DNA of 64,000 nt from Agreia sp. PsM10 (GTDB lineage Bacteria; Actinomycetota; Actinomycetes; Actinomycetales; Microbacteriaceae), in contig NZ_JARUXC010000003.1 of assembly GCF_030433855.1 (NCBI RefSeq), positions 310,001 to 374,000 of the forward strand. The letters are read 5' to 3'. Position numbers and translations under genes: made by a program. Within the stretch, counting starts at the first letter, position 1. Every line of letters starts with the position of its first letter. Under the pieces are notes generated by a model. It worked only from the letters and a program-made list of their open reading frames with translations. It did not search any database and was not told the DNA's origin. This document shows, one piece after another, positions 31,513-39,028 of the stretch.

Positions 31513-31719
31513 GTGATGCTCCTCACGCCTCGCTGGTCGACAACCGGTCTCCTCATCAAATCACGTGTGTGTTTCGCGGGTGCGTCTTTCGCTCGTGTTT
31601 CGCTCTGCGCGTATGTCGGATTCGGGCATTCGTGTCAATGAACGGGCGCACCCTCTGAGGTAACTACAGTTGAACGTTGGGCCCGGTTCCGTAGGCCTGA
31701 CGCTTACTTGGGAGAACAC

Positions 31720-33804
31720 GTGGCATCGGCCGACTATTCCGCACGGCACCTGTCGGTACTCGAAGGACTCGAGGCTGTTCGCAAACGTCCGGGCATGTAC
31801 ATCGGATCGACCGACTCGCGCGGACTCATGCACTGCGTGTGGGAGATCATCGACAACTCGGTCGACGAGGCGTTGGGCGGCTACGGCACCGAGATCGAGA
31901 TCCAGCTGCACGCCGACTCCAGTGTCGAGGTGCGGGACCGCGCTCGAGGAATCCCCGTCGACATCGAACCGAAGACAGGACTGTCGGGCGTCGAGGTCGT
32001 CTTCACCAAGCTTCACGCCGGTGGAAAGTTCGGTTCGGGGTCGTATGCGGCATCCGGTGGCCTGCACGGCGTGGGAGCCTCGGTCGTCAACGCACTGTCG
32101 GAGCGCCTCGACGTCGAGGTGGACCGCGACGGCAAGACCTACGCCATGTCGTTCCACCGCGGTGAGCCGGGCGTCTTCGACGACTCCGGTTCGGCACCGA
32201 CACCGGATGCGCCGTTCACGCCGTTCGAGAACGGCAGCGAACTCCGGGTGGTCGGCAAGGTCAAGCGGGGTGTGACCGGCACCCGCATCCGGTACTGGGC
32301 AGACCGGCAGATCTTCAGCACGACGGCGCGTTTCCAGACGGAGGAGCTCTTCGACCGGGCCCGCCAGACCGCGTTCCTCGTTCCCGGTCTCTCGATCGGC
32401 ATCACCGACGAGCGCGGCGAGGAGACCCGGCGCGACGCATTCCGTTTCGACGGGGGCATCGCCGAGTTCGTCGAACACCTCGCCACCGATTCCGGTGTGA
32501 CCGAGACCTGGCGCCTCCAGGGAACCGGGTCGTTCACCGAGACCGTGCCCGTGCTCTCGCCGCAGGGAGCCATGGTTCCCACCGAGCTGACCCGGGAGTG
32601 CGAAGTAGACCTCGCGCTGCGCTGGGGAACGGGCTACGAGACCACGTTCCGCAGCTTCGTGAACATCATCTCGACCCCGAAGGGCGGCACTCACCAGGCA
32701 GGCTTCGAGGCGGGCCTGCTCAAGTTCCTGCGCCAGACCGTCGAGGCGAACGCCCGGCGCCTGAAGGCGGGCACCGACAAGCTCGAGAAAGACGATGTGC
32801 TCGCCGGGCTCACGGCGGTGCTCACCGTGCGCCTGCCCGAGCCGCAGTTCGAAGGACAGACCAAGGAGATCCTCGGAACCCCGGCCGTGCGCAACATCGT
32901 CTCGCAGGTCGTGACGAAGGGCCTCAAAGAGAGGTTCGAGTCGACGAAGCGCGACGACAAGGCGCAGACCGCCCTGGTGCTCGACAAGGTCGTGGCAGAG
33001 ATGAAGTCCCGCATCTCTGCACGGGCGCACAAAGAGACCCAGCGCCGCAAGAACGCCCTCGAGTCGTCGTCGCTTCCCGCCAAGCTGGTCGACTGCCGCT
33101 CCAACGACGTCGCACTGAGCGAACTGATGATCGTCGAGGGCGACTCGGCGCTCGGCACGGCGAAGCTCGCCCGCAACAGCGAGTTCCAGGCCCTCCTGCC
33201 CATCCGGGGCAAGATCCTCAACGTGCAGAAGGCCTCCGTCGCCGACATGCTCGGCAACGCGGAGTGCGCGTCGATCATCCAGGTCATCGGCGCCGGCTCG
33301 GGCCGGTCGTTCGACCTGTCGACCGCGCGCTACGGCAAGATCATCCTGATGAGCGACGCCGATGTCGACGGCGCGCACATCCGCACGCTGCTGCTCACAC
33401 TGTTCTTCCGCTATATGCGGCCTCTCGTCGAAGACGGTCGGGTCTACGCCGCCGTTCCCCCGCTGCATCGGGTCGTGGTCATGAACCCGGGCACGAAGCC
33501 CAACGAGACCATCTACACCTATTCCGAGGCCGAGCTGCACACGCTGCTCACGCAGCTCGACAAGGCCAAGAAGCGCTACCAGGATCCGATCCAGCGCTAC
33601 AAGGGCCTGGGCGAGATGGATGCCGACCAGCTGGCGACGACGACGATGGACAAGCGGCATCGCACGCTGCGCCGGGTCGGCGTCAGCGACGCCGAGAGGG
33701 CGGAGCGCACGTTCGACCTGCTGATGGGCGACGACGTCGCCCCTCGCAAGGAGTTCATCATCGCCGGATCCGAGGGCATGTCGCGAGAGCGCATCGACAC
33801 CTGA
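31720..33804 (+). CDS. parE: DNA topoisomerase IV subunit B (ParE/GyrB-like)
   Basis: 694 residues. The GHKL ATPase domain has EIIDNSVDEALGG, an Asp-containing loop that reads DRARGIPVD where DNGRGIPVD is usual, and GGLHGVGASVVNALS. The TOPRIM domain has IVEGDSALGTAK, LPIRGKILNV and LMSDADVDGAHI, followed by the C-terminal RYKGLGEMDADQL. With ParC it decatenates replicated chromosomes. The GTG at 31720 with GGGAGA 5 bases upstream fits the family start better than an earlier TTG. Confidence 0.93.
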   Translation: MASADYSARHLSVLEGLEAVRKRPGMYIGSTDSRGLMHCVWEIIDNSVDEALGGYGTEIEIQLHADSSVEVRDRARGIPVDIEPKTGLSGVEVVFTKLHAGGKFGSGSYAASGGLHGVGASVVNALSERLDVEVDRDGKTYAMSFHRGEPGVFDDSGSAPTPDAPFTPFENGSELRVVGKVKRGVTGTRIRYWADRQIFSTTARFQTEELFDRARQTAFLVPGLSIGITDERGEETRRDAFRFDGGIAEFVEHLATDSGVTETWRLQGTGSFTETVPVLSPQGAMVPTELTRECEVDLALRWGTGYETTFRSFVNIISTPKGGTHQAGFEAGLLKFLRQTVEANARRLKAGTDKLEKDDVLAGLTAVLTVRLPEPQFEGQTKEILGTPAVRNIVSQVVTKGLKERFESTKRDDKAQTALVLDKVVAEMKSRISARAHKETQRRKNALESSSLPAKLVDCRSNDVALSELMIVEGDSALGTAKLARNSEFQALLPIRGKILNVQKASVADMLGNAECASIIQVIGAGSGRSFDLSTARYGKIILMSDADVDGAHIRTLLLTLFFRYMRPLVEDGRVYAAVPPLHRVVVMNPGTKPNETIYTYSEAELHTLLTQLDKAKKRYQDPIQRYKGLGEMDADQLATTTMDKRHRTLRRVGVSDAERAERTFDLLMGDDVAPRKEFIIAGSEGMSRERIDT

Positions 33805-33834: not shown

Positions 33835-34908
33835 TCAGACGACGCGACGGGGAATGCGGGGGCTCAGCCGCACCACGAGCTCCTCGGACATCGTCGACGT
33901 GGCGTCCCCCCACTCCTGCAGGGTCGGCTCCCCCGCACTGCCGTCGCCCCAGAGCGTCACGACATCTCCGACCGACACATCCGTGTCGTGGCCGAGATCG
34001 ATCCATGCGCGGTCGACCTCGAGAGGCGCGATCATGGGGCGGCGTCGGCCGTGGATCGCCACCTCGGTTCGACCCGGGGCGAACGTCGAGATGCCGTCGG
34101 CGTAGCCGAGGTCGATCGACGCCCGGCGGCGGCCATCCGGATCGCTCTCGACGGTCGTGACACGGGCGCGCAGGGTCATCGCCTGACGCAGACCCATGCT
34201 GGCCGCGCTCGGCCCGTCACCGGGCGGCAGACCGTAGACGAAGGCGCCGAGGCGCACCAGGTCGAATCGCGCATCCGAGCGTGCGTACGCGGCCGCACTG
34301 GCCGCCAGGTGACGAATGGGCGCACGCACACCGAGTTCGCGGGCTACGTCGACCGCCGCTTCGAAGCGACGGATCGAGAGCGTGTCCTCGTCGTCGCTGG
34401 CCTCCGCGATGTGGGTCCAGACGGCCACGATCTCGACGGCACCTCGCTGTTCGAGTTCCAGGGCGCGTTCCACCAGCCGGGGCCAGTCCTCCGCGGTGGC
34501 GCCGTTGCGGTGCAGGCCCGTGTCGATCTTGAGGTGGATGCGTGCCGGCGCAGCGTCGGTGGACGCGGCGGCCGTCTCGAGCTGCGGCACCGTGGAGATG
34601 CCTAAGTCGACACCCGCCGCGATCGCGGGCGCCAGATCCTCCTCCGGGTCGATCAGCCAGGCGAAGATCCGTGTGCGCGGTGTGATTCCGTGCCGTCGAA
34701 GCGCCAGGGCCGTGGGCACGTCGAGGGCGCCGATCCAGGCCACGCCTGCCTCGACCGATGTCGTGGCCACGTCGAGGAGGCCGTGCCCGTAGGCGTCGTT
34801 CTTGACGACGACCATGACCTCCGCCGGCGCGACCCGTGCCGACAGTGCGAGGATGTTGTGCCGCAGCGCGTCGAGATCGATGACGATCTCGCTCGTGACC
34901 TCTGTCAT
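33835..34908 (-). CDS. alr: Alanine racemase, PLP-barrel subunit (lacks the C-terminal catalytic Tyr segment)
   Basis: 357 residues of the alanine racemase family. The barrel is complete: PLP-lysine K36 in VVKNDAYGHG, R134 in DTGLHR, H166 in WTHIAEA, S204 in AASAAA, R219 in DLVRLG. The C-terminal domain is altered. Between MTLRARVTTV and the GYADG motif (268-272) about 14 residues are missing, and these normally carry the VSYG segment with the catalytic Tyr (Tyr265 of Geobacillus Alr). The usual GRV.MD motif reads APLEVD. Its ATG overlaps the stop of a racemase-like gene that keeps exactly those parts (see findings). A conventional active homodimer seems unlikely; a heterodimer is proposed. 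Last gene of the sigA operon. Confidence 0.85.
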   Translation of the reverse strand: MTEVTSEIVIDLDALRHNILALSARVAPAEVMVVVKNDAYGHGLLDVATTSVEAGVAWIGALDVPTALALRRHGITPRTRIFAWLIDPEEDLAPAIAAGVDLGISTVPQLETAAASTDAAPARIHLKIDTGLHRNGATAEDWPRLVERALELEQRGAVEIVAVWTHIAEASDDEDTLSIRRFEAAVDVARELGVRAPIRHLAASAAAYARSDARFDLVRLGAFVYGLPPGDGPSAASMGLRQAMTLRARVTTVESDPDGRRRASIDLGYADGISTFAPGRTEVAIHGRRRPMIAPLEVDRAWIDLGHDTDVSVGDVVTLWGDGSAGEPTLQEWGDATSTMSEELVVRLSPRIPRRVV

Positions 34909-35657
34909 CGGTAGCTCCGAACGATCCTGTCGCCGAGCGAGGCCGTGACCTCGGCACCGGTCTTGCCGAGGGCGCCCGCCCAGGCGATGGGCGACGGGTA
35001 CCCGTGCTGCTCGTCGCCGAAGAGCACGACCTCGTCGCCGGGCGACACGGGCGATTCGTCGACGTCGAGCATGAAGACATCCATGGCCACGCGTCCTGCG
35101 ATGGGGTGGGTGGTGCCGGCGAACCACGCCCGTGCCCCGTCGCAGGCGTGGCGGTCGATGCCGTCGCTGTAGCCCAGACACACCATTGCCAGCGTGGTCG
35201 CCCGCGGCGTGCGATAGACGTAGCCGTACGACACCCCCTCGCCTGCGCCGACCTTCTTGACCGACAGAATGCGTGCCGAGAGGGTGAGAGCCGGAAGCAG
35301 CCCCAGGGCCCGCGGATCCGCCAGCTCGGCGGAGTCGAGACCGAACAGCTGCGGGCCGAGGACCGTCGTCGAATCGGTCGCGAGTTGCGACCGGAGGACC
35401 GCCGGCGTCGTGAGTCCGAGCGCGTCGACGGCCTGTACGTCGTTCTCGTTCGAGACGAGGAACGCATCCAGCTGCAGTTCGTCGAGCGCGGTCGCCACAG
35501 CGGGCATCCCGTGTCCGTAGGCGTCGCCCCGCAGATCGGCGACGACCCGGCCGGAGGACTGCTCGGCGAGGAGGAGGCGCGTGTTGCTGCGCACCGTCTC
35601 GAGGCTGATCACAGCTCTGCGGGGCGGTGCCGGATGCACCTCGTGAGACCCGGACAT
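34905..35657 (-). CDS. Alanine-racemase-like partner with intact C-terminal domain, truncated barrel and no PLP lysine
   Basis: 250 residues, where racemases have about 370. The N-terminus aligns with the start of the barrel (AVISLETVRSN) but the lysine position reads LRGDAYGHG, with Arg43 for the PLP lysine. About 120 residues of the barrel are then missing. From LTLSARILSV on, the C-terminal domain is complete: VSYGYVY with the catalytic Tyr144, GYSDG (Tyr163) and GRVAMD (Met192, Asp193). These supply the part of the active site that a racemase gives to its dimer partner. The stop overlaps the ATG of alr (ATGA), and the ATG lies 3 bases after the stop of the GatD-like gene. It cannot be a racemase alone. 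Confidence 0.82.
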   Translation of the reverse strand: MSGSHEVHPAPPRRAVISLETVRSNTRLLLAEQSSGRVVADLRGDAYGHGMPAVATALDELQLDAFLVSNENDVQAVDALGLTTPAVLRSQLATDSTTVLGPQLFGLDSAELADPRALGLLPALTLSARILSVKKVGAGEGVSYGYVYRTPRATTLAMVCLGYSDGIDRHACDGARAWFAGTTHPIAGRVAMDVFMLDVDESPVSPGDEVVLFGDEQHGYPSPIAWAGALGKTGAEVTASLGDRIVRSYR

Positions 35658-35659
35658 CA

Positions 35660-36409
35660 CTAGATCGTGGTGAAGACGCTCTTGACGTTCGCCACGATCA
35701 CTTCACGGGACTTCGCCGCGAGACGATCGAGTTCGGCGTGGGGGGCGGATGGCGCGTACGCCTCGTCTCGGCGCTCGAGTGCCGCGCGGATGAGGGCATC
35801 GCTGAGCGACGGGTTGAGCGGAAGGATCGGACCCTTCGTCTGCGTGGCCACGGATGAACCCGCGAGCACACCCTCCCGGCCGTTGCCGTTGCCCCCGCCC
35901 GATGTGACGGCACCGAGCGGAACGGCTCCGGCCTCGAGGTTCCATTCCGACGCGTTGTCTTCGAACCCGACGACGGTGCCCTGTGCGGTCTCGACGACGA
36001 TGTAGCCGACCTGCCGCGGGACTCCCCGGCGGGCGGAGAAGGGGAAGATGCCCACCCCTTCGAGGACGGTGCCGTCGGCGAGCGTGATACCCGCGCCGAG
36101 CAGTTCGGCGCCGGCGCCCACGGCGAAGAACGGCACGCCGTCATCGGCGAGGGAGCGGAGGGCCGCCGCGTTGTCGAGAATGTCGTCGTGCACCGCGCGC
36201 ACGGCCGAGACCGGTCCGTTGCCGATGACGACGATGTCCGGGTCCTTCGGCAGTCGACGGCCGACGGTGTGCTGCACGACATCGGCGCGGTGCCCGGCTC
36301 GCTCGAGCCTCGTCTTGAGGGCGGTCACGTTGCCCCGTTCGCCGCTCGCCTCGAGCTCTTCGGGATACAGCTCGAGGATCGATACAGAGATTCCGGATGA
36401 CGAGCTCAA
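35660..36409 (-). CDS. GatD-like glutamine amidotransferase subunit without catalytic Cys and His
   Basis: 249 residues of the GatD/CobB-CobQ glutaminase fold. In active GatD the nucleophile stands in a CGG-type elbow; here the segment is FFAVGAGAELLG with Gly98 at the Cys position. The catalytic His, normally in HGP.LP.NP, is replaced by Lys192 in TKGPILPLNP. Glutaminase activity is therefore not expected, although the fold and the interface motifs are kept. The start appears to be TTG at 36409, overlapping the TGA of the MurT-like gene (TTGA). It probably still forms a complex with the MurT-like protein. GatD-MurT normally amidate the alpha-carboxyl of D-Glu in lipid II. Confidence 0.82.
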   Translation of the reverse strand: MSSSSGISVSILELYPEELEASGERGNVTALKTRLERAGHRADVVQHTVGRRLPKDPDIVVIGNGPVSAVRAVHDDILDNAAALRSLADDGVPFFAVGAGAELLGAGITLADGTVLEGVGIFPFSARRGVPRQVGYIVVETAQGTVVGFEDNASEWNLEAGAVPLGAVTSGGGNGNGREGVLAGSSVATQTKGPILPLNPSLSDALIRAALERRDEAYAPSAPHAELDRLAAKSREVIVANVKSVFTTI

Positions 36410-37686
36410 AATGAGACCTCCATGTCGCCGTAGCCGATGATCTTTCGAGCGAGCATCATCTGCTCGTAGTTGACCACCCAGGTCTTGTGACCCGTCTGGG
36501 GCGCGGGCAGTGCGCGCATCAGTTCGATCGCCTTCTTGAGATCGGGCTCGATGGTGCCCACGGGGATTCCCTCGTGCTCGAGACGCAGCGCGAACTGCCA
36601 GGCCTTCGCGCCGGTCAGCACGTCGACATGGTCGAGCTGGGCGAAGTCGATGTCGTAGAGCCAGGAGACATCGGGGGTCCCCTCGTCGATGGCGACCATC
36701 ACCTGTTCCGGCGCTGCGGGCAGCGCATCGAGGTTGAGCTGCAGACTCGCGGCGTTCTTGAACATCACGAACTCGACCTTCTCGTCACCGAAGTCGAGCA
36801 GTTCGCCGCGCCCGTAGGCGGGCGTCATGGCCGAGAAGGCGGCCGACGCCTTCGCGAGGTCGAAGTCGGCCCCCAGCACCTTCGCCGCCGTGGCCAGCGC
36901 CGCCGCAGCGTCGACTCCGTAGTGCAGGCCCTTCGCGGGGAGGGAGATGTCGGCGAGGGCGCCATCGACGCGGATGCGTGCGCCCGTGCTGTCCCAGGAT
37001 TCGAGCTCGGCGAGGGCATCGAGCGTCGCGCCCGACGCCTTCTCTCGATGATTCGCCGCGTTGAAGAGCCCGTGCGCCGAGCTCGCCACCAGTTTCGGGG
37101 ATGCCCCGAAGTAGGTGACGTCGGGAACCTGAGCGCCCTTGGCGTCGAGGATCTCGCCGATCTTCGACAGGTACGCGTCGTCTCGATTGCTGATCACGTG
37201 CGAGGTGGCGACGGCCGCGGTGTCGAGCATCATGTCGGCCACGACCTCGGTCTCGAAGAACCGGTACAGCTGGTCGACCTGCACGTTCAGCATCAGGATC
37301 GTCGATGGGAGCAGCGTCTTCGACAGTTCGAGCGCGAACGCCTCGTCGACCTCGAGGATGCCGATGTCGGCCTTCAGCTTTCCCGTCACGCCGACCTCGG
37401 AGAGCAGGGCCGACGAGATGCCCTGGGGCAGGTTCGCACCGGACGGGTTCGTGAACACCGTCAGGCCGTGGGCCCGGAGGACCTCGGTGAGCATGTGGGT
37501 CGTCGTCGATTTTCCGTTGGAACCGAGAACGAACACGATGCCGTACTCGAACTGGGCGACGACATTCTTGATGAACCCCGGCGCCATCTTGTTGACGACG
37601 TATCCGGGCAGCGCCGACCCTCCGCCGCGCGCCCGGGTGACAGCCCGGACGGCGCGACCGACGAGGACGGGCGCGATATAACGCAT
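36406..37686 (-). CDS. MurT-like Mur ligase without zinc ribbon
   Basis: 426 residues. The N-terminus (GGGSALPGYV), the P-loop VLGSNGKSTTTH (residues 53-64), TNPSGANLPQGI, EVDEA, NVQVDQLYRF and the C-terminal DUF1727/MurT_C domain (GRGELLDFG, DVSWLYDIDF) define a MurT homologue. The Cys4 zinc ribbon that MurT carries in the middle domain is absent; no cysteine is seen in the whole protein. The ATP-dependent activation of a carboxylate should be possible. It begins 7 bases after the sigA stop and overlaps the GatD-like gene by 4 bases. A role in attaching something other than ammonia to D-Glu is proposed in the findings. Confidence 0.85.
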   Translation of the reverse strand: MRYIAPVLVGRAVRAVTRARGGGSALPGYVVNKMAPGFIKNVVAQFEYGIVFVLGSNGKSTTTHMLTEVLRAHGLTVFTNPSGANLPQGISSALLSEVGVTGKLKADIGILEVDEAFALELSKTLLPSTILMLNVQVDQLYRFFETEVVADMMLDTAAVATSHVISNRDDAYLSKIGEILDAKGAQVPDVTYFGASPKLVASSAHGLFNAANHREKASGATLDALAELESWDSTGARIRVDGALADISLPAKGLHYGVDAAAALATAAKVLGADFDLAKASAAFSAMTPAYGRGELLDFGDEKVEFVMFKNAASLQLNLDALPAAPEQVMVAIDEGTPDVSWLYDIDFAQLDHVDVLTGAKAWQFALRLEHEGIPVGTIEPDLKKAIELMRALPAPQTGHKTWVVNYEQMMLARKIIGYGDMEVSF

Positions 37687-37693
37687 CCGCGGC

Positions 37694-39028
<1,335 letters not shown>

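Follow-up and report, generated by a model that had tools for sequence, protein, structure and literature searches.

Two overlapping genes with complementary active-site losses: a putative single-site heterodimeric racemase of the alanine racemase fold in Microbacteriaceae

Genes A and B and their neighbours

The window, a 64,000-nucleotide stretch of a contig of Agreia sp. PsM10, carries two overlapping genes related to alanine racemase (Alr) on its minus strand. Gene A (A1; 33835..34908) encodes 357 amino acids with a fold-type III pyridoxal phosphate (PLP) barrel and a C-terminal domain from which the catalytic-Tyr loop is missing, and gene B (B1; 34905..35657) encodes 250 amino acids, consisting of a short N-terminal remnant and a complete Alr C-terminal domain. 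The stop codon of B and the start codon of A overlap in an ATGA (34905..34908, minus strand). An earlier note, based on the DNA sequence alone, had given these coordinates, strands, lengths, and the overlap correctly, and its description of the residues was borne out. By reading of the sequence and by alignment, A contains K36, R134, H166, S204, and R219, and the VSYG Tyr loop is absent. B has Arg43 at the site of the PLP lysine and retains VSYG with Tyr144, GYSDG, and GRVAMD; the gap in its barrel was found to span ∼134 positions (B is unaligned to family-model positions 82 to 215).

Residues were mapped with reference to a model built from 17 complete alr proteins of Microbacteriaceae. On this model, Lys39, Tyr43, Arg136, His166, and Arg219 are present in A and Tyr265 is absent, while B has Arg at Lys39 and retains Tyr265, Met312, and Asp313. 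Lys36 of A (codon 34801..34803, minus strand, as for all codons given here) corresponds to Alr Lys39, which forms the Schiff base with PLP, and is replaced in B by Arg43 (35529..35531). Tyr144 of B (35226..35228) corresponds to Alr Tyr265', the second catalytic base, and Met192 (35082..35084) corresponds to Met312', associated with the substrate carboxylate. At the position of the substrate gate, Alr Tyr354, A has Glu342 (33883..33885). Directly after Arg134, A has Asn135, the residue that the family's alr proteins also have there in their usual GRNG/SRNG motif; the equivalents in the racemases Lyr and Bar are Asn174 and Asn175, respectively.

The domain profiles gave the same division. A matched all 220 positions of Ala_racemase_N and Ala_racemase_C only from position 32, and B matched all 127 positions of Ala_racemase_C and only positions 1 to 75 of Ala_racemase_N. 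Against the TIGR00492 (alr) cutoff of 168 bits, A scored above (187.6) and B below (115.5). The Alr criterion of the PLP Lys39 and Tyr265 on one polypeptide was failed, A having only the Lys and B only the Tyr. The monomer of A was predicted with a pLDDT of 95.6 as a full Alr protomer, its top PDB matches being Alr (TM 0.94 to 0.96, rmsd 1.7 to 1.8). The predicted monomer of B (pLDDT 90.6) comprised the N-terminal remnant and the Alr C-domain, with a TM versus Alr of 0.81 at the best E value.

A parE-like gene (31708..33804, plus strand) is a conserved neighbour, found in 55 of 57 loci, the other two being short contigs. A GatD-like gene (35660..36409, minus strand) lies upstream of B in the same orientation; in it the catalytic Cys is replaced by Gly and the His by Lys, and its sequence is overlapped by 4 nucleotides by a MurT-like gene (36406..37782, minus strand) with the Mur-ligase ATP motif kept as GSNGKST. 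The MurT-like protein scored 102.7 bits with the NCBIfam MurT model, below its cutoff of 800, and matched MurT structures in the PDB at 1e-29 to 1e-21. At the position of the GatD catalytic Cys (Cys94 in Staphylococcus aureus numbering), no Cys was present in any of the 41 aligned loci, while GatD from other families of the order had Cys in 6/6 aligned cases (18 genomes searched, 7 matched, one too weak to align). In S. aureus, the C94A exchange abolished the glutaminase activity of GatD, according to the passages available from that study (PMC5871853). Relative to the pair, GatD was located upstream on the same strand in 19/57 loci, including the window, and in convergent orientation on the other side in 22/57; it was not found in 16/57, with a looser E value threshold than in the parE neighbourhood count. 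A murT-gatD-B-A operon as a rule for the family was ruled out by these counts.

Distribution of the pair and of the residue losses

The Ala_racemase_C search of 199 Microbacteriaceae genomes produced matches in at least 196, and 111 of these were searched again (21 chosen genomes and two sets of 43 and 47, which together were all the remaining genomes with at least two matches). A pair of the window type was found in about 60 of the 199 genomes. Of the 60, 57 were represented by loci that were read, followed by G038, and two (G177 and G112) were counted by domain hits only, with A and B hits on different contigs and a weak A hit in G112. At one locus (L142) a contig end cuts off B, giving 57 A and 56 B proteins for comparison. 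No A was found alone without B except at contig ends, so the heterodimer proposed in the earlier note, for which a solitary A would have counted as a refutation, was not contradicted.

The losses recurred throughout. In the A1 proteins, Lys39, Arg136, His166, Ser204, and Arg219 were each present in 57/57, with Tyr265 in 0/57 and Met312 in 1/57. Conversely, Lys39 was found in none of the 56 B1 proteins (42 aligned there, 14 unaligned), and Tyr265 and Met312 were found in all of them. Model column 285, which was equated with Arg290, was an Arg in 55/56. Tyr284 (model column 279) was less clean than the other residues, being present in 19/57 A1 and 47/56 B1 proteins. In crystal structures of Alr, Lys39, Tyr43, Ser204, Arg219, and Tyr354 are contributed by the first monomer and Tyr265', Tyr284', Arg290', and Met312' by the second, as given in the accessible parts of two structural papers (PMC3245724, PMC3485190). 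Taken with this assignment, the counts indicate that the residues of the first chain are retained in A and those of the second chain in B. Hence, the complementary defects claimed for the window in the earlier note are a pattern beyond chance, repeated in 57 A and 56 B homologues. Tandem complete paralogues with Asp or Glu at position 354 kept both residue sets in 12/12 cases. The A proteins at L116 and L117 have a near full-length C-domain with Gly at the site of the catalytic Tyr and are possible intermediates.

The gene order was B then A in 56/56 B1-A1 pairs and A then B in 4/4 pairs of a second type, A2-B2, described below. With the start codon closest to the upstream stop taken, the overlap was exactly 4 nucleotides in 47/60 pairs, and the spacing was within 30 nucleotides in 59/60. 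Within the genus of the window, dN/dS was 0.13 to 0.22 for A1, 0.17 to 0.23 for B1, 0.12 to 0.18 for A2, and 0.10 to 0.19 for B2, showing that all four genes are under purifying selection.

A profile of the A-type C-terminal region was also run over 396 genomes of the order, and ordinary alr ranked equally well. Six of the matches listed were shorter than 430 bases (by eye), all from Microbacteriaceae. Since the profile discriminates poorly in ranking ordinary alr as well, an absence of A-type genes outside this family was not shown.

A second pair, natural fusions, and the D-alanine route

In the genome of the window, profile search detected seven Ala_racemase_N and four Ala_racemase_C matches, and all four of the latter belong to two pairs. 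The second pair, on contig C10, consists of A2 (L012:9122-8019), in which the Lys is present and the Tyr loop absent, and B2 (L012:8022-7261), in which Thr replaces the Lys and the Tyr and Met are kept. The two overlap in an ATGA, in the order A then B. The flanking genes are presumably nnrD and tsaE, then tsaB, rimI, and tsaD, and the place beside tsaE is the usual one for alr. The searches with Ala_racemase_N and Ala_racemase_C detected no complete alr in this genome, only the two pairs and three N-domain-only matches. A complete alr that had been missed was ruled out, as the remaining N-domain matches lacked a C-domain and the surrounding frames were read: one beside ftsZ is presumably YggS, one beside homoserine dehydrogenase was taken to be a diaminopimelate-decarboxylase-like frame, and the third was taken to be an aldolase/dehydratase-like frame. 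Three congeneric genomes, assembled in 4 to 20 contigs, were also sampled, and they had the same two pairs and no further Ala_racemase_C match (4/4 with the genome of the window). A second complete alr, which would have made the pair dispensable in the terms of the earlier note, was thus not found in this genome, and the heterodimer idea stood unrefuted. A Ddl-type (D-Ala-D-Ala ligase) match in the window's genome (G000:C53:132817-133538) was in two pieces with differing frame lengths.

Elsewhere in the family the distribution differed: 53 of the 60 pair-bearing genomes also contained a complete alr, defined by a full-length C-domain match from the profile alone. The pair is therefore not the source of D-alanine in those carriers, and its essentiality there was not shown.

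In nine genomes of three genera, A and B were fused in a single open frame with the A half first (g21: G020, G100, G161; g74: G073, G136, G188; g50: G049, G119, G174). In each of the nine, the motifs VK..YGHG and TI.YE occurred once each in the A half, and [VI]SYG and GR[VI]AMD once each in the B half. The fusion was the sole Ala_racemase_C match in seven of the nine genomes; the other two (G073 and G188) contained, besides the fusion, a pair of the window type and, as a third locus, a distant complete gene of the Alr family with Ala at position 354 (L245:1190-2356, L246:2117-4171). The g50 fusion frames run on into sequence that, from its motif, we take to be TsaE-like (L089:3686-6052, L090:4691-6952, L091:4653-6887). 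Of the pair-only or fusion genomes, 14 were tested, and a Ddl-type match was present in 14/14 and a D-amino-acid transaminase above the cutoff in 0/14. From these two results, a working D-alanine route through the pair or fusion proteins is likely, although moonlighting enzymes were not excluded, including in the genome of the window.

One further genome (G015), of the size of that of Tropheryma whipplei Twist, had a B-A pair with a 49-nucleotide gap (L092:4726-6646) as its only Ala_racemase_C gene, together with a Ddl match. Tropheryma-like bacteria may thus rely on an enzyme of this kind. As the pair in G015 is of the type with Asp or Glu at position 354 (Asp by eye), its presence there also suggests that pairs of this type can serve alanine.

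In a tree of 80 tips, the A1 barrels grouped together with those of the Asp/Glu354 paralogues (support 92). A2 was placed among alr, with a tandem gene 1 as its neighbour (support 71). The C-domain of B2 fell among those of the second tandem genes (95), and the fused A halves clustered with four tandem gene-1 sequences (95). Complete Y354D/E paralogues fell inside the A1 group (with four A1, support 83), which implies that the loss of the Tyr was repeated or reversed. Many nodes were weak, the A1 sequences did not form a single clade, and support for B1 in the C-domain was low. On this evidence, B1-A1 and A2-B2 look as if a gene-1/gene-2 tandem had decayed twice, separately and in mirror image: the first gene would have kept the site in A2-B2 and the second gene in B1-A1.

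Proposed enzyme, candidate substrates, and known systems

In the mechanism proposed here, A and B would be unlike subunits of one PLP-dependent racemase with the alanine racemase fold. A would hold PLP on Lys36 and supply every residue contributed in Alr by the first chain, and B would reach over to provide Tyr144 as the second base and Met192 and Arg169 for the substrate carboxylate. The mirror-image site, formed by the Lys position of B and the Tyr position of A, would be dead, leaving one site per dimer. The complementary losses, the absence of a complete alr, the second pair, and the fusions make such a composite heterodimer very likely; pairing and activity are inferred from sequence, without a model of the complex or biochemistry. 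The core inference of the earlier note, a single site formed by the barrel of A and the C-terminal domain of B, thus gained comparative support from losses along the cis/trans split of Alr, mostly 4-nucleotide overlaps, nine fusions, and the lack of a complete alr in the window's genome and three sampled congeners. The note knew of no described case, and among the titles and abstracts that literature searches listed, none concerned a split or heterodimeric alanine-type racemase. We hold a single-site racemase formed by A and B to be the best explanation overall with considerable confidence, and, less surely, a diamino acid to be the substrate of A1-B1 and alanine that of A2-B2.

The substrate inference rests on position 354. 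Tyr354 governs the specificity of Alr, and it is replaced by Thr391 in the lysine racemase Lyr and by Ala393 in Bar, as stated in passages of the Alr-structure literature. Of the 57 A1 proteins, 32 had Asp at this position, 23 had Glu, and 2 were unaligned, with Asp in both on inspection by eye; this compares with Tyr in 4/4 A2 proteins, which satisfy the alanine-gate criterion, and Tyr in 100, His in 5, and unaligned in 1 of 106 alr proteins of the family. With Glu342, A of the window fails this criterion and satisfies that of Lyr and Bar, a residue other than Tyr. Tandem complete racemases had Tyr354 in gene 1 and Asp or Glu in gene 2 in 12/12 cases, with three more loci, one of which has Trp in gene 1 (tandem loci L143-L152, L185, L194, and L251-L253, L185 and L194 being from Curtobacterium). 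Such tandem genes are perhaps heterodimers themselves. The Glu at model column 67 was lost in 55/57 A1 proteins and in all 12 tandem Asp/Glu paralogues and was kept to at least 97% in the 106 alr and four A2 proteins.

From Asp or Glu in place of Tyr, the probable substrate of the window pair is inferred to be a basic diamino acid, D-ornithine or D-diaminobutyrate of a type-B wall; the evidence is indirect, and the activity itself is an inference. A2-B2, with Tyr354 kept and tsaE as neighbour, is probably an alanine racemase, which is inferred less surely and without an assay. Accordingly, the word alanine in the title of the earlier note is probably wrong for the window pair, and the ornithine or diaminobutyrate that it gave as an alternative fits better, on indirect evidence only. 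The best-surviving competing explanation, to which we allow a minor but real chance, is that the window pair, though a heterodimer, still racemizes alanine (or alanine and serine) and is a spare for A2-B2. The score of A above the TIGR00492 cutoff and the sole pair in Ddl-bearing G015 would fit such a spare copy, whereas the exchanges at position 354 and column 67, each in 55 of 57 A1 proteins, and the complete alr already present in most carriers speak against it. A diamino acid remains the more likely substrate of A1-B1. The idea falls short of explaining the family as a whole, because the seven fused-only genomes had no gene with Asp or Glu at 354.

Within Microbacterium, the distribution of wall types is compatible with this substrate. 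Microbacterium oxydans is placed in D-ornithine clade V, and in the M. imperiale clade (cluster III) two of three species have L-lysine and M. radiodurans D-ornithine, as far as the available parts of one study report (PMC10757982). Domain hits alone indicated a pair in M. oxydans, which also had a complete alr and another match. The single match in Microbacterium sp. Yaish 1 was an alr, whose locus was 95.0% identical over 8,640 bases to that of M. arborescens, inferred to be one of the two cluster III species with L-lysine. Three more Microbacterium genomes had pair-like hits, and their wall types are unknown. With two named genomes, the correlation is a fit and not a test.

A further explanation is that A alone acts as a homodimer, with another base or in another PLP reaction (decarboxylation or transamination), B being a regulator or chaperone. 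A is predicted to fold as a complete Alr protomer by itself, and Tyr265 of Alr is required for racemization and not for PLP binding. Nevertheless, what B retains of the site in 56/56 cases is the set of trans catalytic residues and nothing more, Tyr265, Met312, and Arg290 would be superfluous in a mere regulator, and A2/B2 and the fusions repeat the split where a complete alr is absent, so that we consider this improbable. That the two genes are duplicates in decay and about to be lost, as the active-site residues missing from both and the truncation of B might suggest, can be dismissed almost entirely in view of the dN/dS of 0.10 to 0.23, the persistence of the overlap and of open frames across 60 loci, and the parE neighbour. 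A pseudogene or assembly error was likewise ruled out by the dN/dS values, the kept overlaps, and the identical layout in three congeners.

The neighbours of the pair in the window allow a speculative extension. A bridge ligase made of MurT and GatD is conceivable, an inference from the Cys-less GatD and the ATP motif in MurT. Tentatively, and with more doubt than confidence, murT, the altered gatD, B, and A may form a cross-bridge module for type-B peptidoglycan. B/A would make the D-diamino acid, and MurT with glutaminase-dead GatD would join it to the alpha-carboxyl of D-Glu instead of amidating it, this being the bond that defines type-B peptidoglycan. The genus of the window would then obtain every free D-amino acid that enzymes of this class provide from single-site heterodimers, A2-B2 (alanine) and A1-B1 (diamino acid), as mirror images from an ancestral tandem. 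The literature titles and abstracts matched named no genes for the D-diamino acid or the cross-bridge of type-B peptidoglycan; the genes described here are candidates for the former and perhaps for the latter.

Pairs in which an inactive paralogue completes an active partner are known from serine palmitoyltransferase (LCB1/LCB2) and the trypanosome AdoMetDC/prozyme. These belong to unrelated folds or families, and to our knowledge the dead subunit does not carry a second catalytic base. Closer to A/B are the tandem genes of the Curtobacterium type, the second of which shares Asp/Glu354 and the loss of Glu67 with A1, although both genes keep the Lys and the Tyr. In Lyr and Bar, Tyr354 is replaced as in A, and the accessible literature links this to larger and basic substrates; however, they are homodimers with another residue at 354, and 4dza and 4dyj were only distant matches to A. 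Alr itself, a textbook PLP enzyme and drug target, is known as a homodimer. With its two catalytic bases on two gene products, in an arrangement that recurs, is fused in places, and is duplicated with another gate, A/B would represent a clean complementary subfunctionalization of one site. A and B are homologous to Alr (TIGR00492; PDB 1vfh, 1xfc, 5fac) by sequence and fold and share its composite Lys39/Tyr265' site, but whereas Alr is one gene forming a homodimer with two sites, A/B are two genes with complementary losses, one possible site, and Glu in place of Tyr354.
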